A stretch of DNA of 64,000 nucleotides, from the NCBI RefSeq assembly GCF_004349065.1, contig NZ_SMKZ01000027.1, forward strand, positions 1 through 64,000, in the 5' to 3' direction. The first letter of the stretch is position 1. The number at the start of each line of letters is the position of its first letter. This DNA is from Jiangella asiatica (GTDB lineage Bacteria > Actinomycetota > Actinomycetes > Jiangellales > Jiangellaceae). The notes under the pieces are model-generated. The model was given only the letters and a program-made list of their open reading frames with translations, did not search any database and was not told the origin of the DNA. Position numbers and translations under genes: made by a program. Below, in pieces: positions 5,518-57,446 of this stretch.

Positions 5518-5523
5518 TAGGGC

Positions 5524-5746: not shown

Positions 5747-5817
5747 CGGGTTCATCCGATCTCTTGACGGTCAAGTCGACGTCACTCGGTCAGCCGCCAC
5801 CGCGAACCGGGAGGGCC

Positions 5818-42200: not shown

Positions 42201-43814
42201 CCGTGGGTGGCGCGCACCCGGCACTCCACCCCAGGCGTCGGGCTCATCTCGCCGCCGCCGCACCACGACATCTACTCCATCGAGGACCTCAAGCAGCTCA
42301 TCCACGACCTCAAGAACGCCAACCCGGCCGCGCGCATCCACGTGAAGCTGGTGGCCGAGGTCGGCGTCGGCACGGTCGCCGCGGGCGTGTCGAAGGCGCA
42401 CGCGGACGTCGTGCTGATCTCCGGGCACGACGGCGGCACCGGCGCGGCGCCGCTGACCAGCCTCAAGCACGCCGGCGGCCCGTGGGAGCTGGGGCTGGCC
42501 GAGACTCAGCAGACGCTGCTGCTCAACGGGTTGCGCGACCGCATCGTCGTGCAGACCGACGGCCAGCTGAAGACCGGCCGCGACGTCGTGGTCGCCGCGC
42601 TGCTGGGTGCCGAGGAGTACGGGTTCGCGACGGCGCCGCTGGTGGTGTCCGGCTGCATCATGATGCGGGTCTGCCACCTCGACACCTGCCCGGTCGGCGT
42701 CGCCACCCAGAACCCGGAGCTGCGCAAGAAGTTCACCGGGCGGCCGGAGTTCGTGGTCAACTTCTTCGAGTACATCGCCGAGGAGGTGCGCGAGTACCTG
42801 GCGCAGCTGGGCTTCCGGAGTCTCGACGAGGCCATCGGCCACGCGGAGATGCTCGACACCACCGCGGCGGTCGACCACTGGAAGGCCGCCGGGCTCGACC
42901 TGTCGCCGATCCTGCACGTGCCGCGGCTACCCGACGACGCCGCCCGCCGGCAGGTGGTCAGCCAGGACCACGGCCTGGAGAAGGCGCTGGACAACCAGCT
43001 CATCGCGCTGGCCACCGACGCGCTGGAGAGCGGCGACCCGGTCCGGGTGCAGCTGGAGGTTCGCAACGTCAACCGCACCGTGGGCACCATGCTCGGCCAC
43101 GAGGTCACCAAGCGCACCGGTGGCACCGGCCTGCCCGACGGCACCATCGACGTGACGCTGGTCGGCTCGGCCGGGCAGTCGTTCGGCGCGTTCCTGCCGG
43201 CCGGGGTGACGCTGCGCCTGGAGGGCGACGTCAACGACTACCTGGCCAAGGGGCTGTCCGGCGGCCGGGTCGTCATCCGGCCCGACCGCGCGGCCCGGTT
43301 CACCGCCGAGGAGAACATCATCGCCGGCAACGTCGCAGCCTACGGCGCCACCGGCGGCGAGCTGTTCATCCGCGGCGTCGTCGGGGAACGTTTCTGCGTG
43401 CGCAACTCCGGCGTCACGGCCGTCGTCGAGGGGGTGGGCGACCACGCCTGTGAGTACATGACCGGCGGTGTCGCGGTCATCCTCGGCCGCACCGGCCGCA
43501 ACATCGCGGCGGGCATGTCCGGCGGCAACGCCTACGTGCTCGACCTCGACACCAGCCTGGTGAACCCGGAGATGGTCGACCTAGAGACGCCCGACGCCGA
43601 CCAGCTGCGGCGGCTGCGCGAGATCGTGGAGAAGCATCGCGACGAGACCGGCTCGGCCGTCGCCGAGGCACTGCTGGCCGACTGGGCCGTCGCCCAGGCC
43701 CGGTTCACCCTCGTCATGCCCAAGGACTACAAGCGAGTGCTCGCCGCCAAGGCCGCCGCCGAGCGCGATGGACGCGATGTCGACGTCGCGATCATGGAGG
43801 CGGCGAATGGCTGA
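39291..43814 (+). CDS. gltB: Glutamate synthase, large subunit
   Basis: A 1507-residue ferredoxin/NADPH-type glutamate synthase alpha subunit. Cys20 ([10 protein letters not shown]) becomes the N-terminal nucleophile of the glutaminase domain after removal of a 19-residue propeptide. A central domain, the FMN-binding synthase domain ([29 protein letters not shown]) and the 3Fe-4S motif [15 protein letters not shown] follow, ending in the beta-helix domain ([26 protein letters not shown]). It converts 2-oxoglutarate and glutamine to two glutamates. ATG 39291 has GGGAG upstream and gives the expected propeptide. The stop overlaps gltD by 8 nt. Confidence 0.98.
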
Positions 43815-45273
43815 CCCACGAGGTTTCCTGAAGACCCCGCGTCAGGTCGCGAAGGCGCGGCCGGTCGACGTGCGGCTCAAGGACTGGAACGAGGTCTACC
43901 CCGAGCCCGGCATCGGGCGTACCTTGCTGCCGATCATCACCGAGCAGGCCGGTCGCTGCATGGACTGCGGCATCCCGTTCTGCCACCAGGGCTGCCCGTT
44001 GGGCAATCTCATCCCGGAGTGGAACGACCTGGTGTGGCGGGACGACTGGAAGGTGGCGGCGGAGCGGCTGCACGCGACGAACAACTTCCCGGAGTTCACC
44101 GGGCGGCTGTGCCCGGCGCCGTGCGAGGCCGCGTGCGTCGTCGCGATCGCCGACGACGCCGTCACCATCAAGAACGTCGAGGTCGCCATCATCGACAAGG
44201 CGGTCGACGAGGGCTGGGTGGTGCCGTCGCCGCCGGAGCGCCTGACCGACCGGACCGTGGCCGTGATCGGTTCCGGGCCCGCCGGACTCGCGGTCGCCCA
44301 GCAGCTCACCCGCGCCGGGCACACCGTCGCCGTCTATGAGCGGGCCGACCGCGCCGGCGGGCTGCTGCGCTACGGCATCCCCGAGTTCAAGATGGAGAAG
44401 CGGCACCTGGACCGCCGGCTGGACCAGATGCGTGCGGAGGGCACCATCATCCGCACCGGGGTCGACGTGGGCGGCGCCGTCACCGGCCAGGAGCTGCGGT
44501 CGCGCTACGACGCGGTCGTGCTGGCGGTAGGTGCGACGGCGTGGCGCGACCTGCCGATCCCCGGTCGCGAGCTCGACGGCGTCCACCAGGCCATGGAATA
44601 CCTGCCGCAGGCCAACCGCAGCGCACTCGGTGAGACGGTGCCCGGCCAGATCACCGCCGCCGGCAAGCACGTCGTCATCATCGGCGGGGGCGACACCGGG
44701 GCCGACTGCCTGGGCACCGCGCACCGGCAGGGTGCCGCGTCGGTCACCCAACTGGAGATCATGCCCGAGCCGCCCGGCACCCGGCACCCGTCGACGCCGT
44801 GGCCGACCTGGCCGCTGATGTTGCGCACGTCCAGCGCCCACGAGGAGGGCGGCGACCGGGTCTACGCGGTCTCCACGCAGGAGTTCGCCGGTGTCGACGG
44901 GCACGTGACGGCGCTGCGGCTGGTCGAGGTGCGGCGCGGGGAGAAGGGCTTCGAGCCGGTGCCCGGCACCGAGCGCGAGCTGCCCGCCGACCTGGTGCTG
45001 CTGGCCATGGGCTTCGTCGGCCCCGAGCGTTCGCCGCTGATCGAGCAGCTGGGTGTCGAACTGGACGAGCGTGGGAACATCGTGCGTGACGATTCCTACG
45101 AGACCACGGTGCCGGGGGTGTTCGTCGCCGGCGACGCCGGACGCGGTCAGTCGCTGATCGTGTGGGCGATCGCGGAGGGCCGGTCCGCCGCAGCCGCGGT
45201 GGACCGCAAGCTCACCGGCGTCGATCGCCTGCCGGCTCCGGTCTCGCCCACCGACCGTCCGCTCGCGGTGTGA
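43807..45273 (+). CDS. gltD: Glutamate synthase, small subunit
   Basis: A 488-residue FAD/NAD(P)H oxidoreductase that passes electrons to GltB. The N-terminal Fe-S region has [14 protein letters not shown] and CPAPCEAAC. The FAD-binding motif is [17 protein letters not shown] and the NADPH-binding motif [15 protein letters not shown], with [19 protein letters not shown] near the C-terminus. Length and motifs are complete. ATG 43807 lies within the end of gltB, so the two subunits are coupled. Confidence 0.98.
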
Positions 45274-45300
45274 CGGTCCAGAGAGATAGTGTTGGCGGAC

Positions 45301-46740
45301 GTGCGTAGAGCGAAGATAGTTTGCACCCTTGGTCCAGCGACCGACTCCCCGGAGCGGCTGCGGGAGCTGATAGACGTCGGCATGGACGTCGCTCGGTTCA
45401 ACCTCAGTCATGGCACCCACGCCGAGCACGAGGAGCGATATCTCCGCGTGCGCAAGGCCGCCACCGAGGCCGAGCGCAACGTCGGTGTGCTTGTCGACCT
45501 CCAGGGTCCCAAGATCCGCCTGGGCACGTTCGCCGAGGGTTCGGTCGAGCTCGAGGACGGCCAGACGTTCGTCATCACCGTCGATGACGTCGATGGCACC
45601 GCCGAGCGTGCCTCCACCACCTACAAGGGCTTGACGCACGACGTGAAGGCCGGCGACACCGTGCTGGTCGACGACGGCAGGCTGTCGTTGGACGTCACCG
45701 AGGTCACCGAGACCGACGTCGTGACCACGGTCGCCATCGGCGGGCGGGTCTCCAACCACAAGGGCCTCAACCTGCCTGGCACCGCGGTCAGCGTTCCGGC
45801 GATGTCGGAGAAGGACGTCGACGACCTGCGCTGGGGTCTGCGCGTCGGCGCGGACATGATCGCGCTGTCGTTCGTCCGCTCGGCCTCCGACGTCGAGGAC
45901 GTGCACCGCATCATGGCCGAGGAGGGCGTGCGGCTGCCGGTCATCGCGAAGGTCGAGAAGCCGCAGGCGGTGGAGAACCTCGCCGAGATCGTCGACGCGT
46001 TCGACGGTGTCATGGTCGCCCGCGGCGACCTCGGGGTCGAGCTGCCGCTGTGGGACGTCCCGCTGGTGCAGAAGCGCGCCGTCGAGCTGTGCCGGCGCCG
46101 GGCCAAGCCGGTCATCGTCGCCACCCAGATGCTCGACTCGATGATCACCAATCCGCGGCCCACCCGTGCGGAGACCTCCGACGTCGCCAACGCGGTGCTC
46201 GACGGCGCCGACGCGGTCATGCTGTCCGGCGAGACCAGCGTCGGGGCGTACCCGATCGAGACGGTCACGACGATGGCCCGCATCGTCGAGGCGGTCGAGG
46301 ACCACGGCCTGGAGCGCATCCCGCCGCTGGGCACCCAGCCGCGCACCAAGGGCGGCGCCATCACCAAGGCCGCGGTCGAGACCGGCAACCTGCTCGGCGC
46401 GAAGTACCTGGTCGCGTTCACCCAGAGCGGCGACTCCGCGCGCCGGATGGCCCGGCTGCGTCCCGGCATCCCGCTGCTGGCGTTCAGCCCGCTGACCGCC
46501 ACCCGGCACCAGCTGGCGCTGTCGTGGGGCATCGAGGCGTTCACCGCCGAGCACGTCGACCACACCGACGAGATGGTCAAGCAGGTCGATCGGATGCTGC
46601 TGGAGCAGGAGCGGTGCCGGCGCGGCGACCTCGTGATCATCGTGGCCGGCTCGCCGCCGGGGATCCCCGGCTCCACCAACGCCATGCGGGTGCACCGCAT
46701 CGGCGACGCCGTCGGCAAGGTCGCGCCCGCCTACCACTGA
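45301..46740 (+). CDS. pyk: Pyruvate kinase
   Basis: A 479-residue glycolytic enzyme making ATP and pyruvate from PEP. Motifs are RRAKIVCTLGPATDS, DVARFNLSHGTHAEH, VDLQGPKIRLGTF, the signature VIAKVEKPQAVENL, GVMVARGDLGVELP, VIVATQMLDSMITNPRPTRAETSDVANAVLDGADAVMLSGETS and a C-terminal allosteric domain. I chose GTG 45301 because homologues begin MRRAKIVCTLGPA; GTG 45289 and TTG 45292 are closer to AGAGAG and cannot be excluded. TAGTGT at 45287-45292 could be a -10 box. Element B3 follows. Confidence 0.96.
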   Translation: MRRAKIVCTLGPATDSPERLRELIDVGMDVARFNLSHGTHAEHEERYLRVRKAATEAERNVGVLVDLQGPKIRLGTFAEGSVELEDGQTFVITVDDVDGTAERASTTYKGLTHDVKAGDTVLVDDGRLSLDVTEVTETDVVTTVAIGGRVSNHKGLNLPGTAVSVPAMSEKDVDDLRWGLRVGADMIALSFVRSASDVEDVHRIMAEEGVRLPVIAKVEKPQAVENLAEIVDAFDGVMVARGDLGVELPLWDVPLVQKRAVELCRRRAKPVIVATQMLDSMITNPRPTRAETSDVANAVLDGADAVMLSGETSVGAYPIETVTTMARIVEAVEDHGLERIPPLGTQPRTKGGAITKAAVETGNLLGAKYLVAFTQSGDSARRMARLRPGIPLLAFSPLTATRHQLALSWGIEAFTAEHVDHTDEMVKQVDRMLLEQERCRRGDLVIIVAGSPPGIPGSTNAMRVHRIGDAVGKVAPAYH

Positions 46741-46791
46741 TGCCGACGGCCACATGAGGCTCTTTTGCTGCTTCCGTGGGTGCGCGTCGCC

Positions 46792-46885
46792 TCGAAATGA
46801 TCACGTTCAGCACGAGATCTCGTGTCGCACCATGCTCGCAATCATGGTGAGGCTCGGGTAATCCTGCTGAACGTGATCATTTCGA
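46792..46885. repeat. Palindromic element B3, complete copy
   Basis: A 94-bp element bounded by a perfect 21-bp inverted repeat: 46792-46812 (core AATGATCACGTTCAGCA) with 46865-46885. Inside are the perfect palindrome CACGAGATCTCGTG (46811-46824) and CACCAT/ATGGTG (46828-46833, 46844-46849). It lies 51 bp after the pyk stop. The 39-bp left core is shared with B1 and B2. The layout is that of a MITE or REP-type element with no coding capacity. Confidence 0.88.
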
Positions 46886-46977
46886 TCACGTCGAGCGTGC
46901 CCGAGCCCCGCAGGGCAGCACGACGGTGAGGACGTGTGCTCCCGCTTCACCGGGGACGCATGCCTGCTGAGCGCGGA

Positions 46978-47013
46978 GGTCCCGCCCACCTGCCATCTGG
47001 TGACGGCGGGACC
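46978..47013 (-). terminator. Hairpin after the Cys-rich small gene
   Basis: GGTCCCGCC (46978-46986) pairs with GGCGGGACC (47005-47013), and CACC/GGTG extends the stem inward with a small bulge. It starts 10 bp after the minus-strand stop at 47023. Confidence 0.6.
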
Positions 47014-47022
47014 TGGGGTTGG

Positions 47023-47247
47023 TCAGGCGTTCGCCGGTTGCAGCACGTCGTCGAGGGTGCCGTCCTTGGCCGACTCGACGATCACCCGCAGCTGGGCCAG
47101 GCTCATCTGGATGCGCTGGCCGAAGTCGTCGGTGATGACGACGCGACGTTCGGGTGGCGCGTTGTGGTTGAGGAACAGCTCCGGGCAACCGCAGTCGCAG
47201 TTGCCGCAGAACGTCACGATGTGCTGGAGAGATCCCGTGCGCTCCAT
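47023..47247 (-). CDS. Small Cys-rich protein (CGNCDCGCP motif)
   Basis: A 74-residue protein with the compact motif FCGNCDCGCPELFL (four cysteines in nine residues) followed by ERRVVITDDFGQRIQMSLAQLRVIVESAKDG. The cysteines suggest a zinc or iron-sulphur site; the rest looks like a small strand-helix domain. I do not recognise a named family, although similar short proteins are, I believe, common in actinobacteria. ATG 47247 precedes MERTGSLQHIVTFCG; a longer frame from 47286 is less likely. It has its own promoter and terminator. Confidence 0.75.
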   Translation of the reverse strand: MERTGSLQHIVTFCGNCDCGCPELFLNHNAPPERRVVITDDFGQRIQMSLAQLRVIVESAKDGTLDDVLQPANA

Positions 47248-47296
47248 GGGCGGCCTCATTCTCCCGATCGAACTGTGCAGCACCACCGGCTCTCGG

Positions 47297-47325
47297 AATG
47301 TAACCGAATCCGTGGATCATGAACA
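47297..47325 (-). promoter_or_regulatory. Possible promoter of Cys-rich small gene
   Basis: On the minus strand TGTTCA and TACATT are separated by 17 bp, about 50 bp before the ATG at 47247. The -35 match is weak. It is back to back with the xthA promoter. Confidence 0.35.
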
Positions 47326-47328
47326 GTC

Positions 47329-47357
47329 TTGATCGATGCCGTGACGGGCAGTAAAAT
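47329..47357 (+). promoter_or_regulatory. Promoter of xthA
   Basis: TTGATC (47329-47334), a 17-bp spacer and TAAAAT (47352-47357). This is a near-consensus housekeeping promoter about 100 bp upstream of the xthA GTG. Confidence 0.6.
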
Positions 47358-47459
47358 CCCGCAGGTCAGGCAGCGGAACGCCGCGGGAGAGGCGACGCGG
47401 CCTCAGCGCGGGTGGAGGGCGGCGCCTCGTTGTCGGTGGGCGGGGCTACGGTAGGTGCG

Positions 47460-48323
47460 GTGAGGGTCGCCACGTGGAACGTCAACTCGATCAAACAACG
47501 CATGCCGCGGCTGCTGCCGTGGCTGGACCAGCGCCGCCCCGACGTCGTCTGTCTGCAGGAGACCAAGCTCGCCGACGAGCTGCTCGCCGAGCTGCTCGGT
47601 GTCGAGCTGGAGCAGCGTGGCTACGAGATCGCCGCACACGGTGAGGCGCGCTGGAACGGCGTGGCCATACTGTCCCGGGTGGGTCTCGACGACGTCGTTC
47701 GCGGGCTGCCCGGCGGTCCGGGCTTTCCCGAGCCGGAGGCGCGGGCGGTCTCCGCGACGTGCGGGGGAGTGCGGGTGCACTCGGTCTACGTGCCCAACGG
47801 CCGCGTGCCCGGCTCCGAGCACTACAACTACAAGCTGGCCTGGCTGGCGGCGCTGCGCGCGCAGGTGCGGGCCGGGCCGCAGTCCGTCATGGTCTGCGGC
47901 GACATGAACATCGCGCCCGCCGATGCCGACGTCTTCGACCCTGACGCCTACATCGGCCAGACCCACGTCACCGAGCCGGAGCGGGCCGCCCTGGCCGAGC
48001 TGCAGTCCGCCGGCCTCCACGACGTCGTGCGCGACCGCTGGCCCAGCGACCGCGTCTTCACCTACTGGGACTACCGGGCCGGCATGTTTCACAAGGATCT
48101 CGGCATGCGCATCGACCTCGTGCTCGCCGACGGCCCGGTGGCCGAGCGGGTCCAGGCCGCCTGGGTCGACCGGCACGCCCGCAAGGGCACCGGTCCGAGT
48201 GACCACGCGCCCGTCATCGTCGACCTCGACGAGGCCCCTGACGGCGACATCGGCCCGGTGGTGCCCCCGCCGTCCGCCGCCGCGCCCCGGCGCGGGACGG
48301 TGAAGCTGCCCCAGGCCCCCTGA
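47460..48323 (+). CDS. xthA: Exodeoxyribonuclease III / AP endonuclease
   Basis: A 287-residue EEP-family nuclease for base-excision repair of abasic sites and 3' blocks. Motifs are RVATWNVNSIKQRMPRLLPWL, VCLQETKL with the metal-binding glutamate, GVAILSR, YVPNGRVPGSEHYNYKLAWLAAL, VCGDMNIAP with Asp and Asn, and GTGPSDHAPVIVDL with the catalytic Asp-His. GTG 47460 gives the usual M-R-V-A-T-W-N start; the codons upstream in frame are not family-like. The final ~30 residues are a variable tail. Confidence 0.95.
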   Translation: MRVATWNVNSIKQRMPRLLPWLDQRRPDVVCLQETKLADELLAELLGVELEQRGYEIAAHGEARWNGVAILSRVGLDDVVRGLPGGPGFPEPEARAVSATCGGVRVHSVYVPNGRVPGSEHYNYKLAWLAALRAQVRAGPQSVMVCGDMNIAPADADVFDPDAYIGQTHVTEPERAALAELQSAGLHDVVRDRWPSDRVFTYWDYRAGMFHKDLGMRIDLVLADGPVAERVQAAWVDRHARKGTGPSDHAPVIVDLDEAPDGDIGPVVPPPSAAAPRRGTVKLPQAP

Positions 48324-48374
48324 CCGCGGGTGGATCGCGGGCATGGCCGGTGCCCTGACGGGTACCTGCCGGAC

Positions 48375-48602
48375 ATGACCGACAAGGCAGTGATCCGCGC
48401 CTACGACGACGGGCCGTTGCTGGTCCGCGGCGCGTTCGAGATCCAGACCCAGGACGGCGACGTCATCGACGCCCGCCGGGCGACGGTGGCGCTGTGCCGG
48501 TGCGGCAGGTCGGCCATCAAGCCGTTCTGCGACGGGAGCCACGTCGCGGCGGGCTTCCGGGCGTCCACGTCGGCGCGCCGGGCCAACCGGACCGCCGGGT
48601 GA
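48375..48602 (+). CDS. CDGSH iron-sulphur protein
   Basis: A 75-residue protein with one CDGSH/mitoNEET-type motif, CRCGRSAIKPFCDGSH (CxC-X2-(S/T)-X3-P-X-CDGSH), which binds a 2Fe-2S cluster through three cysteines and one histidine. The first half (VIRAYDDGPLLVRGAFEIQTQDGDVI) is typical of bacterial members. It probably carries electrons. Its last 86 bp overlap the 3' end of the opposed glycosyltransferase gene. Related iron proteins are encoded just across that gene. Confidence 0.9.
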   Translation: MTDKAVIRAYDDGPLLVRGAFEIQTQDGDVIDARRATVALCRCGRSAIKPFCDGSHVAAGFRASTSARRANRTAG

Positions 48603-49611
48603 GCGCGGCCACGTCCAGCGCCGCTCGGTCTTGTGCGGCCCGGTCCCGCACAGCTCGGTCGAGCATGGCCTGGCTGTGCGCCGCCACCGCCAGCCGCGTG
48701 CCGGCGTAGGAGACGCCGCCGGCCAGCACCCGCATGGCCACCGCCACCCACGAGCACACCCCGCGCTCCAGCACCCACGCCGGCGCCCACAAGGCGGCGC
48801 TCGCCGGGTACGCGCGGGTGCCGCCGTCCCGGCGCCGGCCGGCCTCGGCGATCGCGATCGCCGCGACGACCGCCGCCGCGCTCATCTGCCATTGTCGGCG
48901 CCGCGCCAGGGCGACGCCCGCCGGCAGGATCGCCAGCTCGGCGGCGAGCCGGCCCGGCTGGGCGAGGCTGTCGAAGGCTTGGCGGACCCGCTGCGACCAG
49001 AAGGTTCGCACCGTCGGCGGCCGGCGTCGGACGAACACACCACGCGCGAACCGGACCGTGGCGCCGGCGGCCCGCATCGTCCGGATCAGCTCGAGATTCT
49101 CGAACAGCACGTCGCCGTCGTAGCCGCCGGCCGCGTCGTACCGGTGGCGGCGCACCCCGAGGGTCCCCGGGTAGTCGGTGCCGAATGCCCGGTTGACCAG
49201 CGACCGGGCGCTGTCCCAGCGGGCGTGCCAGGGCAGCGGCTCGAAGACGTTCTGCGGCACCACCACGTCCGCGCGATCCAGCTCCCGGAGCACCGACGCG
49301 AGCGAGGCCTCGTCGTAGCGGACGTCGTCGTCGGCGATGACGACGACGTCACCGGTGGCGCGCCGCAGCCCGGTCCGCACCCCGTGGACCTTCCCGTTGC
49401 GGCAGCGCAGCTCGTCGTCCGGCCGGAGATGTGTCACCAGCCCGGCCCAGGCGGCACGGTGCCGCGCGAAGAGCTCCGGCGGCGAGCCGTCGACGACCAC
49501 CACCCGGCAACGGGTGCGCAGCCAGGCCAGGTAGCCGGTCAGCTCCGCCAGCCGATCGACGTCGGCCGTCCAACGCAGCGGCAGGACATAGGCCGGCGGC
49601 TCGATGGTCAT
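48517..49611 (-). CDS. Family 2 glycosyltransferase
   Basis: A 364-residue GT-A-fold transferase. The nucleotide-sugar domain has YVLPLRWTADVD, VVVVDGSPPELF, GKVHGVRTGLRRATGDVVVIADDDVRYD with the metal-binding acidic motif, and the acceptor region GVRRHRYDAAGGYDGDVLFENLELIRTMRAAGATV. Membrane-associated helices follow (AAELAILPAGVALARR, AAAVVAAIAIAE, ERGVCSWVAVAMRVL). Donor and acceptor are unknown. The ATG at 49611 overlaps the stop of the upstream gene on the same strand (ATGA), so the two are one operon. Confidence 0.88.
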   Translation of the reverse strand: MTIEPPAYVLPLRWTADVDRLAELTGYLAWLRTRCRVVVVDGSPPELFARHRAAWAGLVTHLRPDDELRCRNGKVHGVRTGLRRATGDVVVIADDDVRYDEASLASVLRELDRADVVVPQNVFEPLPWHARWDSARSLVNRAFGTDYPGTLGVRRHRYDAAGGYDGDVLFENLELIRTMRAAGATVRFARGVFVRRRPPTVRTFWSQRVRQAFDSLAQPGRLAAELAILPAGVALARRRQWQMSAAAVVAAIAIAEAGRRRDGGTRAYPASAALWAPAWVLERGVCSWVAVAMRVLAGGVSYAGTRLAVAAHSQAMLDRAVRDRAAQDRAALDVAALTRRSGWPGAPTWTPGSPPRRGSRRRTA

Positions 49612-50603
49612 CGAGCCGCGGCGATCGGTGCGCGCCGGCTGCTCTCCTGCCAGCTCACCAGCAGGGTCTTCGCGAACAGACCGTCGACGACGAGGCACGC
49701 GGTGGCGCCGAAGGCGAGGTCGATGGCCGCGTCCGGATGCGCGCGCAGGTAGCTGCCGCACAGGTCGTGAGCGGCGATCTGCTCGTGGACGGCGTCGGCC
49801 TCGACGTGCTCGTCGAAGTACCGGGCCGCGTCGTCGTCCCCGCCGAGGCGGCGAACGCCCGCCGCATAGCGCCGGTTGGGCTCGGTGGACGTCATTTCGA
49901 ACACCGCGAGATGCCCCAGCAGCGCGGCGAGCCAGCGGCGGTGCAACCCGAACAAAGACATCAGGTTCGACACCGCCAGCGTGACCGCCGGCACCTGGGG
50001 CACGTAGTACCCGTACTCGTCCGACAGGCCCAGCCAGCGCATGGTCCGCCGGAACAGCTCGGCGTGCATGCGTTCCGGCCGGCCGCCGCCGTACTCGTCG
50101 GCCTGGATCTCCAGCATGGCCGCTTTGGCGGCACCGTCCAGCCGCGGAATGCCGAACGTGTGCGGATCGGCCTCCTTGAGCTGGTAAATCGACCGGTTGC
50201 GCGCGAACTCGCGGAACTGCTCGCGGGTCGCGTGCCGCTGCAGGTAGCGGGACAGCGACGGCGCATCGTCGGCGTCGACGATCTGCCGCAGCAGCCGGGG
50301 CGCCGGGAGCGCGGGGTCGACCTCGCGGCCGGCACACAGCTGGCGCAGGCACGCCGTCCAATGCCGTTCCAGGTCGGCGCGGAACCGGAGCACGTCGACG
50401 TCCCATTCCATCTCGGCCGGCACGTCCGCGAAGCCGCGGTAGTGCAGCTCGTAGCAACACCACAGCGCGAGCTGCAGGTCGTCGTCGCACCACGCCGTGG
50501 AGAGCGGGCCCGAAGGTCGCGGTGCCGGCGTCGGCGGCGCGGCGTGGATGAGATGCCGGACCAGCCACCGGCTCAACTCGCCCCTCGGCGGCGGCAGCTC
50601 CAT
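49608..50603 (-). CDS. Iron-containing redox enzyme, heme-oxygenase-like fold
   Basis: A 331-residue all-helical protein of the heme-oxygenase-like diiron (HDO, Haem_oxygenas_2) group. Candidate metal ligands are the Glu and His in YELHYRGF, the EIQADEYGGGRPERMHAELF segment and FDEHVEADAVHEQIAAHDL near the C-terminus. Characterised members include N-oxygenases and desaturases that need O2 and reductant. A small CDGSH protein nearby could supply electrons, which is inference. It starts at ATG 50603 and is co-transcribed with the glycosyltransferase. Confidence 0.85.
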   Translation of the reverse strand: MELPPPRGELSRWLVRHLIHAAPPTPAPRPSGPLSTAWCDDDLQLALWCCYELHYRGFADVPAEMEWDVDVLRFRADLERHWTACLRQLCAGREVDPALPAPRLLRQIVDADDAPSLSRYLQRHATREQFREFARNRSIYQLKEADPHTFGIPRLDGAAKAAMLEIQADEYGGGRPERMHAELFRRTMRWLGLSDEYGYYVPQVPAVTLAVSNLMSLFGLHRRWLAALLGHLAVFEMTSTEPNRRYAAGVRRLGGDDDAARYFDEHVEADAVHEQIAAHDLCGSYLRAHPDAAIDLAFGATACLVVDGLFAKTLLVSWQESSRRAPIAAAR

Positions 50604-50700
50604 GGACGATCCCCCTTTTCGGCTCGTAGACAGCGCCATACCCAGCACCGGTGGGACGCATGCCGTCCAGCCGGGGCGGCGTCCGTCAGGCGCCGGCCGG

Positions 50701-51423
50701 TCAGGCGGCGCCGAGGTGGGCGCTGAACCAGTCGCCGGCCAGCCGGGCCACCTCGGCCAGCGCGCCGGGCTCCTCGAACAGGTGCGTCGCGCCCGGCACG
50801 ACCGCCAGGTCGCGGACGCATCGCATCCGGGCCAGCGCCGCGCGGTTGAGCCCCAGCACCTGCTCGTCGCGGCCGCCGACGATGAGCAGGGTCGGCGCCT
50901 GGACTCCGGGCAGCGCGTCGCCGGCGAGGTCAGGGCGGCCGCCGCGGGAGACGACGGCGCCGACGCGCTCGTCGTCGGGGGCGGCGACGGCGAGCGCGGC
51001 CGCGGCACCGGTGCTGGCGCCGAACAGGCCGAGCGGCAGGTGCGCCGTCGCCGGGTCGGTCGCGAGCCACCGGCCGGCCAGCCTCAGGCGGTCGGCCAGC
51101 AGCGCGATGTCGAAGCGGTGCCGGCCGGTGACGGCATCGTCGCGCTCCTCGACGTCGGTGAGCAGGTCGGTCAGCAGGGTCGCGAACCCCTGCCGCTGCA
51201 GCGCCGCGGCGACCGAGCGGTTGCGCGGGCTGTGCCGGCTACTGCCGCTGCCGTGCGCGAACAGGACCACCCCGCGTGCGTCCGGGGGAACCGCGAGGTC
51301 CGCGTGGATCGCCTCACGCGCCTCGACGCCGGCGACGGCGCCGCTGTGCACCGGCACGGTGACCGGACGCTCGGTCAGCCGGTCGTCGTGGTCGGTCGGG
51401 CCGTCGCGGCCCAGGTACGTCAT
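50701..51423 (-). CDS. Dienelactone-hydrolase-like alpha/beta hydrolase
   Basis: A 240-residue alpha/beta hydrolase of the small dienelactone-hydrolase-like group common in actinobacteria. Visible are GVVLFAHGSGSSRHSPRNRSVAAALQRQGFATLLTDLL, the elbow LGLFGASTGAAAAL (nucleophile Ser in GAST), VGAVVSRGGRPDLA, LLIVGGRDEQVLGLN with the acid and a late histidine in GATHLFEEPGAL. Substrate unknown. AAGGAG precedes ATG 51423. It lies between the redox-enzyme operon and the two-component system, all on the minus strand. Confidence 0.88.
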   Translation of the reverse strand: MTYLGRDGPTDHDDRLTERPVTVPVHSGAVAGVEAREAIHADLAVPPDARGVVLFAHGSGSSRHSPRNRSVAAALQRQGFATLLTDLLTDVEERDDAVTGRHRFDIALLADRLRLAGRWLATDPATAHLPLGLFGASTGAAAALAVAAPDDERVGAVVSRGGRPDLAGDALPGVQAPTLLIVGGRDEQVLGLNRAALARMRCVRDLAVVPGATHLFEEPGALAEVARLAGDWFSAHLGAA

Positions 51424-51492
51424 CGGAGACCACTCCTTCGAACCGCGGCGTACCCAGCCGGGCACGGAACACACCGGGTCGCCCGACCCGGC

Positions 51493-53223
51493 TCAGGACG
51501 GCCGGACGCGCTGATCCAGGAGGTGTGACTCGACCGCCGGCAGCACGACGGTGAACGCCGAGCCGACCCCGACGGCGCTGGAGACCTCGAGGCGTCCCTG
51601 GTGGGCCTCGACCAGGTGCTGGGCGATGGCCAGCCCCAGGCCCGAGCCGGGGTGCGGCCGGCCGGTTGGCGGGTCGGAGCGGTAGGCCCGGTCGAAGACG
51701 TGCGGCAGGTCCTCGGCGGCGATACCGCAGCCGGTGTCGCTCACGGTGAGCACGGCCGAGCCGGCCGAGCGACGCACCGTGATCGTCACGGTGCCGCCGG
51801 CCGGCGTGTGCCGGACCGCGTTCGACACCAGGTTGCCCAGGACCTGCCGCAGCCGCGCCGGGTCGGCCCTGACGGTCACCCGCTCGGCGTCCTGGACGCG
51901 CAGGTGGACGCCGAGAGCCGACGCCTCGGCCCGGTGCCCGGCGACCACCTGCTCGGCCAGGTCGGCGGCATCGCGCTCCTCCGGGTGCAGCCGCAGCAGA
52001 CCGGCGTCGGCCAGCGCGAGGTCGTGGAGGTCGGTGACCAGCCGTTCCAGCTGCGCCGACTCCGTGATCAGGGACGTGACCAGGCCAGGCGCGAGTGGGA
52101 CGACGCCGTCGCGGGCCGCCTCCAGGTGCGTGCGGACGTTCGACAGCGGCGTTCGCAGCTCGTGCGTCACTTCGCTGATCATCGCGGTGCGGCGCCGCTC
52201 GTGGCTCTCGACCGCGGCGACGGTCAGCGCGCGCAGGCGCCGGGTGAGGCGGCGGCCGACCGGGAGCGTCAGCGCGACGGCGGCGGCCAGCCCGGTCGCG
52301 GCCGCCGTGGCCACCCGCGGCGAACCGGCTTCCGACAGCGGGTCGAACCCGTCGCCGCTGCCGACGTAGAGATGCGCCGGCGGGGCGACGAAGGCCCGCT
52401 TGGCCTCGGTGGCCGCGGCCTCGGCGCAGGCCGCCCAGGTGGGTCCGGTGCCCGCGACCGGAAGCAACCTGGGCAGGCCATCGCCGTCGGTGGTGGCCTC
52501 GTACGGCAGCGCGTTCGCGTCGAGGCAGGCCGCGGTCTCGGCGACGGTGCGCTCCCGCAGTGCCCGGCTCGCCGCGGTCGGCGCGAACAGGGCCTCGGCC
52601 CCGCATGACCGCACCGTCTCCGGCGGAGTTCCGGAGGTGGTGGTCGTAGGGGTGCCGCTGGCGTCGGTACGCAGCCGCCGGTACCAGGGCTCGGCCGGCG
52701 GTTCGGCCGGACGGGCGTTCTCCGCGCACGCGGCCGCCGCGTCCGCACGCGCCTGCAGCTGCTGCCGCTCTTGTTCGGTCGGCTGCCAGGTGTAGAAGGA
52801 CAGGTTGGCGCCGCCGTCCGAGCCGCCGCCGACGACGACGTTGGGTTCGGGCTCCGCGTCGGCGAGCGGCTCGGCGGCCGCGTCGATCAGCGTGGTCGGC
52901 GTCGACGGCAGGTCGCCGGCCTCCGTACCGAGCAACTCGGCGGAGTCGGCGATCACCGCGCCGTCGGGCGTGGTGACGGCGATGCGCTCACCGGTCCGCT
53001 CGGCGAGCTCGAGCACCAGCGATGCGACGCCGTCCCAGCTCGCATGCTCGTTGGCGAAGAAGTAGAGGTCGGTGTAGGCGTCGAGGTCGGTCTCGAGCAG
53101 CGGCTGGCCACCTGCGTCGTCGTCACCGTCGTAGGCGAGCAGCAGGATCGTCGCGCTCACGGCGAACGAAGCCACCGACAGCGAGAGCCCGAGCAGGCGC
53201 GGCTGGAGACTACGGTGCACCAC
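51493..53223 (-). CDS. Sensor histidine kinase
   Basis: A 576-residue membrane kinase. One helix near the N-terminus (LLGLSLSVASFAVSATILLLAY) and one at ~305-325 bracket a ~270-residue external domain. That domain has four cysteines and a Thr/Pro-rich stretch, and resembles no sensor I know. Then come a dimerisation domain with the phosphorylated His (EVTHELRTPLSNVRTHLEA) and an ATPase domain (LVSNAVRHTPAGG, DTGCGIAAEDLPHVFDRAYR, GSGLGLAIAQHLVEAH). The start overlaps the regulator gene by 14 nt. It should phosphorylate that regulator in response to an external signal. Confidence 0.93.
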   Translation of the reverse strand: MVHRSLQPRLLGLSLSVASFAVSATILLLAYDGDDDAGGQPLLETDLDAYTDLYFFANEHASWDGVASLVLELAERTGERIAVTTPDGAVIADSAELLGTEAGDLPSTPTTLIDAAAEPLADAEPEPNVVVGGGSDGGANLSFYTWQPTEQERQQLQARADAAAACAENARPAEPPAEPWYRRLRTDASGTPTTTTSGTPPETVRSCGAEALFAPTAASRALRERTVAETAACLDANALPYEATTDGDGLPRLLPVAGTGPTWAACAEAAATEAKRAFVAPPAHLYVGSGDGFDPLSEAGSPRVATAAATGLAAAVALTLPVGRRLTRRLRALTVAAVESHERRRTAMISEVTHELRTPLSNVRTHLEAARDGVVPLAPGLVTSLITESAQLERLVTDLHDLALADAGLLRLHPEERDAADLAEQVVAGHRAEASALGVHLRVQDAERVTVRADPARLRQVLGNLVSNAVRHTPAGGTVTITVRRSAGSAVLTVSDTGCGIAAEDLPHVFDRAYRSDPPTGRPHPGSGLGLAIAQHLVEAHQGRLEVSSAVGVGSAFTVVLPAVESHLLDQRVRPS

Positions 53224-53923
53224 CGGCCTCCTCGTCGGCCGGATCGGCGAGCTTGTAGCCCACGCCGGTGACCGTCAGCAGGTAACGCGGCCGGGTGGGG
53301 TCCGGCTCGATCTTGCGGCGCAGGTTCATGACGTGCATGTCGACCGCGCGGGCGGTCACCGAGCGGTCGAACCGGCCGGTGCGCTCCAGCAGCATCTGCC
53401 GGGTGAACGCCCGTCCCGGCGCCGCGCCGAGGCTGGACAGGAGCGCGAACTCCGCCGGCGTGGTCGCTACGGCCGTCCCGTCGACGCGTACCTCGTGCCG
53501 TGCGGCGTCGATGAGCAGCCGGCCGATGCGGACCTGTTCGGGCTGGTGTCCGGTGGATCGGGCCGAACGCCGCAGCACGGCCTGTACCCGCGCGAGCAGC
53601 TCCGGCGGGCTGAACGGCTTGGTCACGTAGTCGTCCGCGCCCAGCGAGAACCCCAGCAGGAGGTCGTCCTCGCCGGCCCGGGCGGTGAGCATGACGACCG
53701 CGACGTCGTGCTCGGCGCGGACCACCCGGCACACCTCCAGACCGGACACGGCTGGCAGCACCAGGTCGAGCACCAGTAGGTCGGGTCGGTGCCGCCGGAC
53801 CGACTCGATGGCCGCCCGGCCGTCGTGCACCACCGCCACCCGGTGCCCTTCGCGAGCCAGGTACCGGCGGATCACCTCGGCCTGCCCGCGATCGTCCTCG
53901 GCGACGAGGATGCGCGCCGTCAT
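53210..53923 (-). CDS. OmpR/PhoB-family response regulator
   Basis: A 237-residue regulator. The receiver has the acidic pocket E9-D10-D11, phosphorylation site Asp53 (LLVLDLVLP), the Thr in VVMLTAR and Lys in VTKPFSPPEL. The C-terminal winged helix has TTPAEFALLSSLGAAPGRAFTRQMLLERTG, the recognition helix ARAVDMHVMNLRRKIE and the wing RYLLTVTGVGYKL. It is cotranscribed with the kinase and divergent from the serine hydrolases; three TGAC repeats at 11-bp spacing lie in the shared promoter region. Confidence 0.95.
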   Translation of the reverse strand: MTARILVAEDDRGQAEVIRRYLAREGHRVAVVHDGRAAIESVRRHRPDLLVLDLVLPAVSGLEVCRVVRAEHDVAVVMLTARAGEDDLLLGFSLGADDYVTKPFSPPELLARVQAVLRRSARSTGHQPEQVRIGRLLIDAARHEVRVDGTAVATTPAEFALLSSLGAAPGRAFTRQMLLERTGRFDRSVTARAVDMHVMNLRRKIEPDPTRPRYLLTVTGVGYKLADPADEEAGGAP

Positions 53924-53973
53924 GCCCGGAAGTGTCGCGCACGGAGCTGAGAGTTCCCCAAGAAGTCCCGGGG

Positions 53974-54001
53974 CTGACCGCGTCTTGACACGAACTTGAC
54001 C
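53974..54001 (+). promoter_or_regulatory. Three 11-bp-phased TGAC direct repeats (response-regulator site)
   Basis: CTGACC (53974-53979), TTGACA (53985-53990) and TTGACC (53996-54001) are spaced exactly 11 bp apart, so TGAC starts at 53975, 53986 and 53997. Direct repeats in register with the helix are how OmpR/PhoB-type dimers bind. The site lies between the regulator gene and the first serine hydrolase gene. The TTGACA or TTGACC unit may also act as a -35 element. Confidence 0.55.
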
Positions 54002-54045
54002 GCCCCCACGCAGGCTGTGGGTGTCGACCCCTAGAAGGAGATGCT

Positions 54046-55251
54046 GTGAACGCTCATCACGACACCACTGCGCCGGCACTGTCCCGGCGGTCCGTCCTGG
54101 GCATGCTGGGTGCGGTCCCGGTGGCGAACGGCTCGGGCATCGCGCTGGCCGGGGCCGCCCGCGCGGACGAGACCGCGGGGAAGTCCGCGACGACCGCCGC
54201 CGGCGGGCGCATCCCGGAGGAGCTGCGGCCGGGCGGGAAGTTCGACCAGTACCTGGCCGACCTGGCCGAGAAGGACGCGTTCGCCGGCACCGTGCTGGTG
54301 CGGTTGAAGGGTCGCGACGTGTTGTCGCGCTCGTACGGGATGGCGAACAAGGAGAAGGAGATCCCACACGGCCCGGACACCATCTTCACGCTGGGCTCGG
54401 TGCCGAAGGCGATGACCGCGGTCGCGATCACCCAGCTGGCCGCGGCCGGCAAGGTGGACTTCCACGAGAAGCTGGGCGCCTACGTCGACGGGTTCTCCGA
54501 CGAGGTGGCGAACACGGTCACCGTCCACCAGATGCTCACCCACACCTCCGGGCTCACCGACTACCACCGGATCGAGGGGTTCTGGAAGGAGGCCCCGACC
54601 TGGGACACCGTCGAGGCCACCTGGAACGGCTGCCTGGAGTACGTCCAGCTGGACGAGCTGAAGTTCCCGGCCGGATACAGCAACTCCGCCTTCTTCGCCC
54701 TCGGCGCGATCGTCGCGGCGGTCTGCGACGAGGACTCGTACTACGACTACATCCGCCGGCACGTGTTCGAGGTGGCCGGCATGACGAGCTCGGACTGGTT
54801 CACCCTGCCCGAGGCCCGGGAGGACCCGCGCATCGCCCACCCGTACTTCAAGAACGAGGCCGGCGAGTGGCTCGACGCCGTCCTCGAGGACGACCAGTTG
54901 TTCGTCGGCACGCCGGCCGGCGGCGCGTTCGCGACGGCCGGCGACCTGGCCCGCTTCGCCGAGGCGGTCATGGACGACACCCTCCTCGGGGAGGCCGGCT
55001 GGACTCACCTGGCCACGAGCCCGAAGACACCCATGCCGCAGCCCGGCGGTACACCGTTCGAGGCGTACGGCACCGTCTGGCGGCTGATGAACGGCCAGCG
55101 GACGGTGTCGAAGACCGGCGGCAGCAAGGGCGTGTCGGCGAGCGTCGAGTGGTTCCCGGACTCCGGCTGGGTGGCGGTGGCGCTGGCCAACTATGCCCGG
55201 GCGGCAGAGACCGTCGGTGAGCGGCTGCGCGAGCTCATCACCGCGGCGTGA
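54046..55251 (+). CDS. Tat-exported serine hydrolase (beta-lactamase/class C family), copy 1
   Basis: A 401-residue exported protein. The Tat signal is SRRSVLGMLGAVPV, ending near AGAARADE. The class C beta-lactamase/DD-peptidase-like domain has the nucleophile motif S-x-x-K as SVPK (TLGSVPKAMTA), the second motif Tyr-Ser-Asn (YSNSAFF) and a third-motif region KTGGSKG. Substrate is unknown; such proteins include esterases, DD-peptidases and D-amino-acid amidases. AGAAGGAG precedes GTG 54046. A close paralogue follows 56 bp downstream, and both are divergent from the two-component genes. Confidence 0.9.
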   Translation: MNAHHDTTAPALSRRSVLGMLGAVPVANGSGIALAGAARADETAGKSATTAAGGRIPEELRPGGKFDQYLADLAEKDAFAGTVLVRLKGRDVLSRSYGMANKEKEIPHGPDTIFTLGSVPKAMTAVAITQLAAAGKVDFHEKLGAYVDGFSDEVANTVTVHQMLTHTSGLTDYHRIEGFWKEAPTWDTVEATWNGCLEYVQLDELKFPAGYSNSAFFALGAIVAAVCDEDSYYDYIRRHVFEVAGMTSSDWFTLPEAREDPRIAHPYFKNEAGEWLDAVLEDDQLFVGTPAGGAFATAGDLARFAEAVMDDTLLGEAGWTHLATSPKTPMPQPGGTPFEAYGTVWRLMNGQRTVSKTGGSKGVSASVEWFPDSGWVAVALANYARAAETVGERLRELITAA

Positions 55252-55307
55252 CGCGGCCGCGCCCGCGCCGCCGCCCGGATTCCCAACCCGAGAAGGAGCA
55301 GGACCAC

Positions 55308-56519
55308 GTGAACACCACCAACGACACCACTGCGGCGGCACTGTCCCGGCGGTCCGTCCTGGGCATGCTGGGCGCGGTCCCGGTGGCGACCGGCTCGGGC
55401 ATCGCGCTGGCCGGGGCCGCCCGCGCGGACGAGACCGCGGCGACCGCGGCGTCAGCGTCGGCCACGATCCCGCGGTCGCTGCGGCCGGGCGGCGAGTTCG
55501 ACCAGTACCTCGCCGACCTCGCCGAGAAGGACGAGTTCGCGGGCACCGTCCTGGTGCGATGGCGCGGACACGACGTGCTGTCCCGGTCGCACGGCATGGC
55601 GAACAAGGAGAAGGAGATCCCGCACGGCCCGGACATCGTCTACACCCTCGGCTCGGTGACGAAGGCGTTGACCGCGATCGCGATCACCCAGCTGGTCGCC
55701 CAGGGCAAGGTCGCCTACCACGAGAAGCTGTCCACCTACGTCGACGGCTTCGTCGACCCACTCGCCAAGGACGTCACCGTCCACCACCTGCTCACGCACA
55801 GCTCGGGCTTCGTCAACGTCCACCAGAACACGGGCTACTGGCAGGAGTCGAGAACCTGGGACAGCGTCGAGGAGGTCTGGGAGGGAACCCTGAAGTACGT
55901 CCGGCAGGACGACGTGACCTTCCCGCCCGGCAGCAGCACCGAGTACAGCAACACCGGCTTCTTCGCCCTCGGCGCGATCGTGGCGGCGACTTCCGGCGCG
56001 GACTCGTACTACGACTACGTCCGCGAGCACGTGTTCGAGCCGGCCGGCATGAAGGACTCCGACTTCTACACCCTGCCCGAGGCGCGTGATGACCCGCGGA
56101 TCGCGCACCCGTACCACAAGGACGGCAACGGCGACTGGGTCGACGTCATATACAGCGACCAGCAGTTGTTCGTCGGCACGCCGTCCGGCGGGTCGTTCTC
56201 CACCCCGGGTGACCTGGCGGCCTTCGCCGAGGCGGTCATGGACGACACGCTCCTCGGAGAGCCGGCGTGGACCCACGTCGCGACGACGCCGAAGCTGCCG
56301 CTGTACTCCGACCCGGAGATCACCTTCGCTGGGTACGGCCTCACCTGCCGCCTGCCCGGTGACGAATGGTCGCTGGCGAAGAACGGCGGCACCCAGGGCG
56401 TCTCGGCAAACGTGGAGTGGTTCCCCGAGTCCGGCTGGGTGGCGGTCGTGCTGTCCAACTACACCAAGGCCGCCGAACCCGTCGCCGACGAGATCCGCCG
56501 GCTCATCGCCGCGGGCTAG
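55308..56519 (+). CDS. Tat-exported serine hydrolase, copy 2
   Basis: A 403-residue paralogue of the preceding protein: Tat motif SRRSVLGMLGAVPV, nucleophile motif SVTK (TLGSVTKALTA), YSN (EYSNTGFF) and, in place of KTG, KNGGTQG. Over the mature domain the two share long blocks such as MANKEKEIPHGPD and GYxAVMDDTLLGE-type sequence, but they differ at many positions. The first ~118 bp of coding sequence are 97% identical between the copies, far above the rest. AGAAGGAG precedes GTG 55308. Confidence 0.9.
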   Translation: MNTTNDTTAAALSRRSVLGMLGAVPVATGSGIALAGAARADETAATAASASATIPRSLRPGGEFDQYLADLAEKDEFAGTVLVRWRGHDVLSRSHGMANKEKEIPHGPDIVYTLGSVTKALTAIAITQLVAQGKVAYHEKLSTYVDGFVDPLAKDVTVHHLLTHSSGFVNVHQNTGYWQESRTWDSVEEVWEGTLKYVRQDDVTFPPGSSTEYSNTGFFALGAIVAATSGADSYYDYVREHVFEPAGMKDSDFYTLPEARDDPRIAHPYHKDGNGDWVDVIYSDQQLFVGTPSGGSFSTPGDLAAFAEAVMDDTLLGEPAWTHVATTPKLPLYSDPEITFAGYGLTCRLPGDEWSLAKNGGTQGVSANVEWFPESGWVAVVLSNYTKAAEPVADEIRRLIAAG

Positions 56520-56541
56520 CAACGAGAGAGTGAGGTACCGC

Positions 56542-56820
56542 GTGAACCCCGGGAAGCACCAGCCCTCGGCGCACCCTCGCGCCGGAACGTGCTCGGCGGC
56601 CTGCTCGGAGCCGTGCCGGTGGCCGCCGGGGCGGCGGGCCTGGTATCCGCCGCGTCCGCCGTCCCCGCGGACCTGCGACCGGGCCGGTTCTCCGTCGCGT
56701 CCATCACCAAGCAGTTCACCAGGGTTGCGATCGCCCAGCTGGTCGAGCGGGACGTGATCGGATACCCACGAGGCCGCCGAGTCGGTGCGTGACCTGGCGC
56801 GCGAGTTGATCGCCGGGGTG
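56542..56820 (+). pseudogene. Decayed third serine-hydrolase copy
   Basis: A start GTG (56542) is out of frame with a following Tat leader SRRNVLGGLLGAVPV (about 56577-56621). That frame reads on to ADLRPG and then jumps to RFSVASITKQFTRVAIAQLVERDVI, an intact S-x-x-K segment, with the ~60 residues normally between missing. A third frame then gives EAAESVRDLARELIAG (56770-56817), which matches the C-terminal ends of copies 1 and 2. So about 270 residues are deleted and there are at least two frameshifts. It should make no active enzyme. Confidence 0.8.
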
Positions 56821-56830
56821 TCGAACCACC

Positions 56831-56836
56831 TAGACT
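56831..56836 (+). promoter_or_regulatory. -10 box of PPOX gene, leaderless arrangement
   Basis: TAGACT is followed by six bases and the ATG at 56843, with TTGATC at 56806-56811 (19-bp spacer) as a possible -35 box. No Shine-Dalgarno sequence is present. Confidence 0.5.
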
Positions 56837-56842
56837 TGGCGG

Positions 56843-57286
56843 ATGCTTCCTGATCTCGACGACGACGCGCGCGCCCGCGCGGAGGAGCGGCTGCGCGAGC
56901 AGACGGTTGTCTGGCTGACCACGGTCTCCGCCGACGGCCAGCCCCAGACGTCGCCGGTCGGCTTCGTGTGGGACGGCGAGTCCTTCCTCATCCTCAGCCA
57001 GCCGGGCCAGGCCAAGGTGCGCAACCTGGGCGGCAACCCCAGGGTCTCGCTGCACCTGGACCTCGACGGCGAGGCCGAGCGGAACAGCGTGCTCACAGTC
57101 GAGGGCGTCGCCACGGTGGACCCCGCACCGCCCGGCGGCTCCGCCCGGCTGAGCGAGGACGAGGCCGCCGTCTACGTCGAGCGCTACCTGGAGAGCATGG
57201 AGTGGGCGGGCACCACTCCGGAGGCGACGTTCGCCGACTTCTCCACGGTCATCCGCGTCACCCCGACCCGCGCCCGGTCCTGGTGA
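56843..57286 (+). CDS. PPOX-class F420-dependent oxidoreductase-like protein
   Basis: A 147-residue split-barrel flavin/deazaflavin-binding protein. TVVWLTTVSADGQPQTSPVGFVWDGESFLILSQPGQAKVRNLGGNPRVSLHLD is the family core, and it resembles the TIGR03667/Rv3369 type of actinobacterial F420 proteins. It probably reduces a small molecule with F420H2; FMN use is the alternative. Length is normal. It begins at ATG 56843, directly after the serine-hydrolase pseudogene, and is convergent with gabD. Confidence 0.88.
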   Translation: MLPDLDDDARARAEERLREQTVVWLTTVSADGQPQTSPVGFVWDGESFLILSQPGQAKVRNLGGNPRVSLHLDLDGEAERNSVLTVEGVATVDPAPPGGSARLSEDEAAVYVERYLESMEWAGTTPEATFADFSTVIRVTPTRARSW

Positions 57287-57332
57287 ACCCACGCCTGGCC
57301 CTTGGGTCCAGCGCGCCACCGTGCTGCGCCTC

Positions 57333-57395
57333 GGCACGCGAAGTCTTTCGATGCACCGGGACAGATCGGACGGGCGGGCGGTGAGTTCGCGTGCC
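57333..57395. terminator. Inverted repeat between convergent PPOX gene and gabD
   Basis: GGCACGCGAA (57333-57342) and TTCGCGTGCC (57386-57395) are perfect 10-bp arms with a 43-nt loop in the 160-bp gap. It could end one or both transcripts, although the long loop makes this uncertain. Confidence 0.35.
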
Positions 57396-57446
57396 AAGGA
57401 TGGCGACTGACGAGGACTGCCTCCTTGACTCTCCGCCCGTGCGGGG

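Follow-up and report, generated by a model that had tools for sequence, protein, structure and literature searches.

Conserved pairing of a heme-oxygenase-like diiron protein with a CDGSH iron-sulphur protein in Actinomycetes: a Jiangella asiatica locus with an optional glycosyltransferase

Among heme-oxygenase-like diiron oxidases and oxygenases (HDOs), the mangotoxin acetylenase MboA requires MboB for its second oxidation, and its authors regard MboAB as perhaps the first characterised dedicated HDO-redox pair (PMC13185094, accessible text). The same source notes frequent use of chemical reductants and mediators in HDO assays. The accessible sections of a 2026 HDO review name MboB as redox partner, and the terms CDGSH and ferredoxin are absent from them (PMC13108848). 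Type 4 CDGSH proteins, which predominate in Actinobacteria and Firmicutes, carry a single CDGSH motif, and the available portion of the work describing them names no partner enzyme (PMC3174974). Here, we analyse a locus of Jiangella asiatica that encodes an HDO and a CDGSH [2Fe-2S] protein together with a family 2 glycosyltransferase (GT). It lies in a stretch of 64,000 nucleotides (contig NZ_SMKZ01000027.1, positions 1 to 64,000), referred to as the window. The CDGSH protein of the window shares the single motif with the type 4 proteins and belongs to a set with a near-constant partner gene.

The comparison with MboAB reveals one likeness and two differences. In both cases, an HDO is encoded with a dedicated redox partner, a role that remains putative in the window. 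MboB uses NAD(P)H via flavin and an Fe2S2 cluster, whereas the candidate partner here is a CDGSH protein of 75 aa with no other domain. The MboA substrate is a tripeptide produced by ligases of its own cluster, whereas neither gene flanking the locus in the window encodes a ligase (MboAB as given in the accessible text of PMC13185094).

The pairing of HDO with CDGSH is the solid result of the analysis. Searches with tblastn covered 96 loci, namely the 80 best relatives listed, a set favouring close relatives, and 16 further ones. A CDGSH gene was located within 3 kb of HDO in 89 of them, a GT within that distance in 29, both in 24, and neither in 2. The order and orientation of the two genes differ among these loci, with same-strand, convergent, and divergent arrangements, and adjacency is kept throughout. 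Another 40 stretches were chosen by hand, 7 of them because they carry CDGSH without HDO; locus gene maps were built from mechanical gene calls. Among the 150 best places listed per family, 105 HDO places came from genomes that also have a listed CDGSH place, and 101 of these lay within 5 kb of it. Of the other four, three lay within 18 kb on the same contig and one on a different contig.

Co-occurrence across genomes points in the same direction. When 40 genomes were searched for both proteins, all 19 with a close HDO also had CDGSH; one had CDGSH without a close HDO, and two had a weak HDO without CDGSH. In a sample of 296 Actinomycetes genomes, a strong HDO (best E ≤1.3e-45, the next weaker being 6e-40) was present in 161, CDGSH in 186, and both in 136. 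Outside one family (f18, membership read from the genomes on the HDO listing of this sample), CDGSH occurred in 135 of 137 genomes with a strong HDO vs 50 of 131 without one (Fisher p 8e-31, phylogeny ignored). With f18 included, the proportions were 136/161 and 50/135 (p 2e-17, with the same limit). A preliminary description of this DNA had proposed gene-neighbourhood comparison, with a linkage restricted to this strain as the outcome that would speak against it; HDO-CDGSH linkage proved near-constant across the sampled Actinomycetes outside f18, which clearly excludes that outcome.

The two proteins also appear to have travelled together. Pairwise HDO and CDGSH distances correlate over the 96 loci (r = 0.84, a value reached in none of 500 permutations), and shared species history contributes to this value. 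Of 11 genomes of the same genus, eight carry an HDO with only 44-47% identity to that of the window, and three carry none. CDGSH from the six congener loci compared shares 24-38% identity with the window copy across the aligned part. Identities to Phytoactinopolyspora (HDO 65%, CDGSH 68%) and Kribbella (63-64% and 63-68%) are higher, and the top single CDGSH value reaches 73% over 55 residues (locus L104). The HDO tree (FastTree, with several long branches) likewise clusters the window with Phytoactinopolyspora and Kribbella. Because both proteins differ from those of congeners and resemble those of other genera, the simplest reading is that HDO and CDGSH moved as a unit. When window positions 43001-58000 were compared by dc-megablast with the exoIII loci of five congeners, DNA similarity stopped at the same place in all five (Table 1). 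The module starts at a genomic breakpoint and probably represents a transferred copy. As a separate observation, the more distant HDO of the congeners, and CDGSH where compared, sits at another genomic place.

The family assignment of HDO is supported by its ligands and predicted fold. Residues E144, E170, H180, H266, D270, and H273 are invariant in 50 of 50 aligned HDOs, all drawn from the 80 best matches; the other 49 are 48-64% identical to that of the window. They align with SznF E189, E215, H225, H311, D315, and H318, the metal ligands of that enzyme. The AlphaFold2 model (a monomer, as are all structure models used here) has a mean predicted local distance difference test score (pLDDT) of 94.5. 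Its closest match is HrmI (Z 34.0, 2.2 Å over 301 of 331 residues), followed by RohS (Z 28.3) and SznF (Z 28.2). N-oxygenases as a group fall at Z 34-27, and HDO structures overall at Z 34 to 18, including 3bjd and FlcD (25-26; FlcD 25.5), CADD (23.5), and UndA (20.3). Foldseek returned HrmI, SznF, and RohS as top matches. A profile search of PDB sequences retrieved RohS (4.5e-16), SznF (7.5e-14), and HrmI (7e-13), with BesC alone as the next match (E 0.0036). Identity to HrmI, SznF, and RohS in the structural alignments is only 17-19%. In addition, a Pfam scan of the window HDO matched no cupin domain, whereas SznF-type enzymes carry a C-terminal one. These three enzymes belong to natural-product clusters, whereas the HDO-CDGSH pair is spread through the class. 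The alignments and models place the protein as a predicted heme-oxygenase-like diiron oxidase or oxygenase nearest the HrmI/RohS/SznF N-oxygenases. Such resemblance favours N-oxygenation, although a shared fold is not a shared function.

The interpretation that we prefer, at a probability of about one half, is that CDGSH acts as the dedicated electron donor of an N-oxygenating HDO, within a module under partial stress control, with a product that receives a sugar here and a methyl group elsewhere. The locus would then represent a two-component oxygenase that is widespread in actinobacteria. HDO would bind two irons via its six conserved Glu, Asp, and His ligands and activate O2. Its most probable reaction, by comparison with HrmI, SznF, and RohS, would be N-oxygenation of a small substrate resembling an amine, an amino acid, or guanidine. 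Turnover would take external electrons, and CDGSH would deliver them from a cellular reductase encoded off-locus. The product may then be glycosylated by the GT of the window, and elsewhere methylated by a HemK2-like methyltransferase (MT) or left unmodified. In several lineages, including that of the window, a sigma-B/F-like promoter motif suggests that the general stress response switches the module on. The preliminary description had envisaged a glycosylated metabolite or lipid. Because HDO resembles N-oxygenases, a plain lipid is a less likely substrate than an amine or an amino-acid-like compound.

The CDGSH protein has the cluster ligands expected of this type. Its motif in the window is CRCGRSAIKPFCDGSH, with a full Cys3-His set of ligands (C41, C43, C52, and H56), and the closest solved relative by sequence is 3tbm. 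In an alignment that did not require the motif, all four ligands were found in 117 of 118 distinct linked copies; for the remaining copy (L135), the alignment stops short of the ligand His. No CDGSH-HDO fusion was seen in the gene maps of the loci. A different setting was observed in three small genomes (L160, L161, and L163), in which CDGSH without HDO lies between a gene for a membrane-protein-like product of ~800 aa and a ThiF/MoeB-like gene that has a tail resembling rhodanese; both neighbour labels were assigned by eye.

A role in stress is also known for this fold. In Acinetobacter baumannii, the gene of the HDO DtpC is transcribed together with katE; the protein restricts H2O2 in dried cells and depends on its metal-ligand residues (PMC13232832, accessible part). 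DtpC has six ligands, as does the window HDO, and is tied to stress survival; it differs in sharing an operon with the catalase KatE, and CDGSH and Rieske proteins are unmentioned in the available main text (PMC13232832). This precedent opens a possible alternative, which we consider unlikely though worth weighing, namely that the pair serves reactive-oxygen defence. HDO would reduce O2 or H2O2 with CDGSH electrons and protect the cell in stress or desiccation, with GT and MT as side decorations. Rubrerythrin with rubredoxin provides an analogy for such a pair.

Promoter and neighbourhood data bear on both readings. The sigma-B/F-like motif upstream of the window HDO is separated from the ATG by 34 nt. 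The wider class GNNT-N14-17-GGGTA(C/T) was modelled on the promoter consensus recognised by sigma-B in Streptomyces and sigma-F in mycobacteria. It precedes 25 of 131 HDO genes, compared with 39 of 1212 non-HDO genes in these loci (Fisher p 1e-10, phylogeny ignored), and occurs in 119 of 8040 random windows. A stricter GTT form was found in 6/134 HDO upstreams vs 45/8040 random windows. An Mn-catalase gene lies within 5 kb of HDO in 10 of 131 loci, though just 17 of the 98 class genomes searched carry such a gene. Some plasmid copies of HDO adjoin stress genes as well: SpoIIE, STAS, and CsbD genes in Kitasatospora, gas-vesicle genes in one Streptomyces, and sigma-B-family sigma factors and ANTAR genes in another. 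Beside the HDO of a Curtobacterium plasmid copy, no gas-vesicle, sigma-B-family, SpoIIE, STAS, or CsbD genes were found.

These associations fit defence, but such neighbours are a minority. Of the 17 Mn-catalase genomes, 15 also have a strong HDO, and among these the two genes lie within 7 kb in 2 (G024 and G046), and the Mn-catalase gene of the window's genome is on a different contig. Furthermore, the nearest folds are biosynthetic N-oxygenases, and a pure scavenger would leave the HDO-GT fusion and the GT/MT alternation described below unexplained. The stress association is suggestive in some lineages, and a general one would go beyond these data.

The function of CDGSH itself allows a further alternative, which we judge improbable: rather than donating electrons for turnover, it could supply iron or a cluster, or act as a redox sensor, to assemble or gate the HDO diiron cofactor. 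The diiron cofactor of HDOs is labile, and cluster transfer by CDGSH proteins is known from mitochondria. Such a role would explain the same co-inheritance of HDO and CDGSH. Electron transfer is the better fit to the HDO relatives of other phyla, in which the place of CDGSH is occupied by a Rieske protein. In Azospirillum, Gloeothece, Methylobacterium, Pantoea, and Rhizobium, that is, in five of six annotated non-actinobacterial plasmid records (L182, L184, L186, L187, and L188; a Burkholderia record is unannotated), the first annotated gene downstream of the HDO relative codes for a small Rieske [2Fe-2S] protein. These systems resemble the window in pairing HDO with a gene for a small [2Fe-2S] protein and differ in the Rieske for CDGSH and in phylum. 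The two Rieske-linked HDOs scanned have a C-terminal cupin, as in SznF, whereas the window HDO has none, and two of the five neighbourhoods contain a PrmA/PRMT-like methyltransferase, of another family than the HemK2-like MT. In Asticcacaulis, a single protein of 653 aa combines ferritin-like, Fer4_19, and CDGSH domains (L189:1204-3165). By analogy, these parallels suggest that small Fe-S proteins may serve such iron enzymes.

The third gene of the locus behaves differently from the pair. The GT consists of a GT-A domain and a C-terminal helical part (AlphaFold2 pLDDT 91.4). It matches the GT2 profile PF00535 at 31.7 bits vs a cut-off of 23.3, and D94-D95-D96, Q207, R208, and R210 are invariant in 23 aligned GTs, of which the other 22 are 53-64% identical to that of the window. 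Fold matches include GT-A enzymes. An assignment of the acceptor from structure was attempted and abandoned, as the 50 best matches are a mixture of GT-A enzymes (lipid-phosphate, polymer, and other types) with query template-modelling (TM) scores of 0.34-0.54. No sequence relative was found in the PDB at E ≤0.1. Hydropathy gave no clear membrane segment (best 19-residue mean 1.44), which leaves membrane insertion uncertain.

Where GT occurs among the 96 loci, its placement is uniform: it lies downstream of HDO on the same strand in 29 of 29 cases. The gap between the HDO and GT alignments is 12-110 nt in 28 of these and 406 nt in L104, where the two are fused. Fusion in one open frame was found in two genomes of family f17 (L104:9064-11418, 785 codons; L143, oriented 4877-6913, 679 codons), with a low-complexity linker that is repetitive or variable. 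Among 134 loci, GT is present in 34 and MT in 23, and never are both present, with ~6 joint occurrences expected if independent. The MT count derives from clustering; tblastn also detects MT in L141 and, weakly, in L150, both of which lack GT. The MT member scanned matches TIGR00537 (HemK2/MTQ2) at 112.6 bits vs a cut-off of 87. GT and MT look like alternative decorations.

It could still be argued that the HDO-CDGSH pair is real and that the GT of the window is an unrelated passenger that overlaps by accident, an option we regard as quite unlikely. Most loci with the pair have no GT, and GT presence requires 14 changes on the HDO tree, so GT has been gained or lost often while the pair stayed. 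Among closely related Arthrobacter and Pseudarthrobacter loci, L053 and L067 lack the GT that L054 and L057 carry amid the same flanking families. A passenger would not, however, be expected to keep its same-strand position behind HDO in each of those 29 loci, to be fused with HDO twice, and never to co-occur with MT. The preliminary description had placed oxygenase, iron-sulphur carrier, and GT in one pathway. A functional link among the three is well supported, because the pair is near-constant and GT recurs beside it and is fused to HDO in two genomes. The idea of a three-gene core does not stand, since GT is optional and MT takes its place in other lineages; the core comprises two genes.

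Some further genes were noted around HDO. In Cellulomonas loci that lack the usual GT (L033, L040, L041, and L068), another GT2-like gene (f51, assigned by eye) lies downstream of HDO. A dimethylargininase gene (L192:5094-5915) lies directly upstream of the Kitasatospora plasmid HDO, an arrangement that is not general. A methylarginine pathway in the style of SznE/SznF was considered and set aside as a general pointer to the substrate: a dimethylargininase homologue occurs near only one of 131 loci (L075, 26% identity), and the MT is HemK2-like, not PRMT-like. A YbdK ligase was also rejected as a core member, being within 5 kb in only 7 of 131 loci.

Very improbable, and already disfavoured, is an origin of the linkage in a stress or iron island common to both genes with no direct functional coupling: other stress genes do lie near HDO in some loci, but clustering places the next commonest family after HDO and CDGSH in only 30 of 141 loci, and adjacency of the pair persists despite varying order and orientation.

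Several observations weigh against CDGSH as the dedicated donor of a stress-controlled HDO. The accessible part of the 2026 review states that no HDO studied so far depends on a protein effector (PMC13108848). The residue after the ligand His is Lys or Arg in 94 of 99 linked CDGSH copies, which were picked with a motif requiring the ligands and provide no test of ligand conservation; the window has Val instead, and its CDGSH may therefore have an altered surface. In the available portion of the type 4 work, Lys or Arg is reported at this position in >90% of proteins (PMC3174974). It is a usual, not an obligatory, feature of type 4. The Nostoc plasmid record (L183) has no Rieske gene next to its HDO relative. 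The promoter motif class is absent from 106 of 131 HDO upstreams, and it appears on the opposite strand in 9 of 134.

The exceptions to the pairing belong to the same account. Within 6 kb of HDO, 13 of 134 loci have no CDGSH. In four of them (L005, L006, L037, and L048), the sequence next to the module runs out at or close to a contig end, and L129 is a short plasmid copy. L023, L028, and L042 form one Arthrobacter branch with HDO and GT, and no CDGSH in the available stretch. The five others (L151, L152, L153, L154, and L156) all belong to family f18 and form a single clade on the HDO tree. At genome level, 23 of 24 strong-HDO genomes of f18 have no CDGSH and one does; hence, a relative of this HDO works without CDGSH. 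In the five f18 loci, a protein of 238-271 aa adjoins HDO on its upstream side, on either strand, and the one examined has an NPPY motif and weak similarity to PrmC-type methyltransferases. Conversely, 50 of the 296 genomes carry CDGSH without a strong HDO, which indicates that CDGSH also has other roles.

The layout of the locus is given in Table 1. Translation revealed no internal stops in the CDGSH, GT, and HDO frames. CDGSH and GT overlap tail to tail over 86 bp (48517-48602), and the HDO stop shares 4 bp (49608-49611) with the GT start, which makes translational coupling of the two genes likely. The three frames are not a product of chance, because homologues of all three adjoin one another in other genera. 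These data confirm the preliminary description in its gene calls, in an overlapping HDO-GT operon that faces CDGSH, and in the extent of the tail-to-tail overlap. The left neighbour is the exoIII gene (TIGR00633), and the right neighbour encodes an alpha/beta hydrolase. At E ≤0.001, PF14518 and PF09360 each match a single place in the J. asiatica genome (7.03 Mb, 134 contigs), and both places are in this locus.

Table 1. Positions of the genes and other features of the HDO-CDGSH locus in the window.
Feature	Coordinates	Strand	Remarks
CDGSH [2Fe-2S] protein	48375..48602	+	75 aa; intact frame; Pfam PF09360 3e-20
Family 2 glycosyltransferase (GT)	48517..49611	-	364 aa; Pfam PF00535 1.8e-7, PF13506 3.5e-6
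Heme-oxygenase-like diiron protein (HDO)	49608..50603	-	331 aa; Pfam PF14518 Haem_oxygenas_2 1.8e-58
Sigma-B/sigma-F-like promoter motif GCAT-N16-GGGTAT	50638..50663	-	upstream of HDO-GT operon
End of DNA similarity with congeners	48314..48328	none	dc-megablast; at exoIII end (stop 48323)

No paper pairing CDGSH with HDO was found in the literature searched; subscription papers were mostly outside its coverage, so absence from print is unproven. Bacterial CDGSH proteins are common, and the literature searches returned no named partner for them. If the reading of CDGSH as electron donor of HDO is correct, HDO would be, as far as these searches show, the first enzyme partner for bacterial single-motif CDGSH proteins, and this would be the first case of a large HDO family that has an Fe-S carrier of its own. 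With both genes in almost half of the Actinomycetes genomes sampled (136 of 296), the pair offers both fields one directly testable partnership. At 331 and 75 aa, HDO and CDGSH are small enough to express, mix, and measure. Beyond the enzymology, the pair points to an unrecognised product, which may carry alternative sugar or methyl caps.

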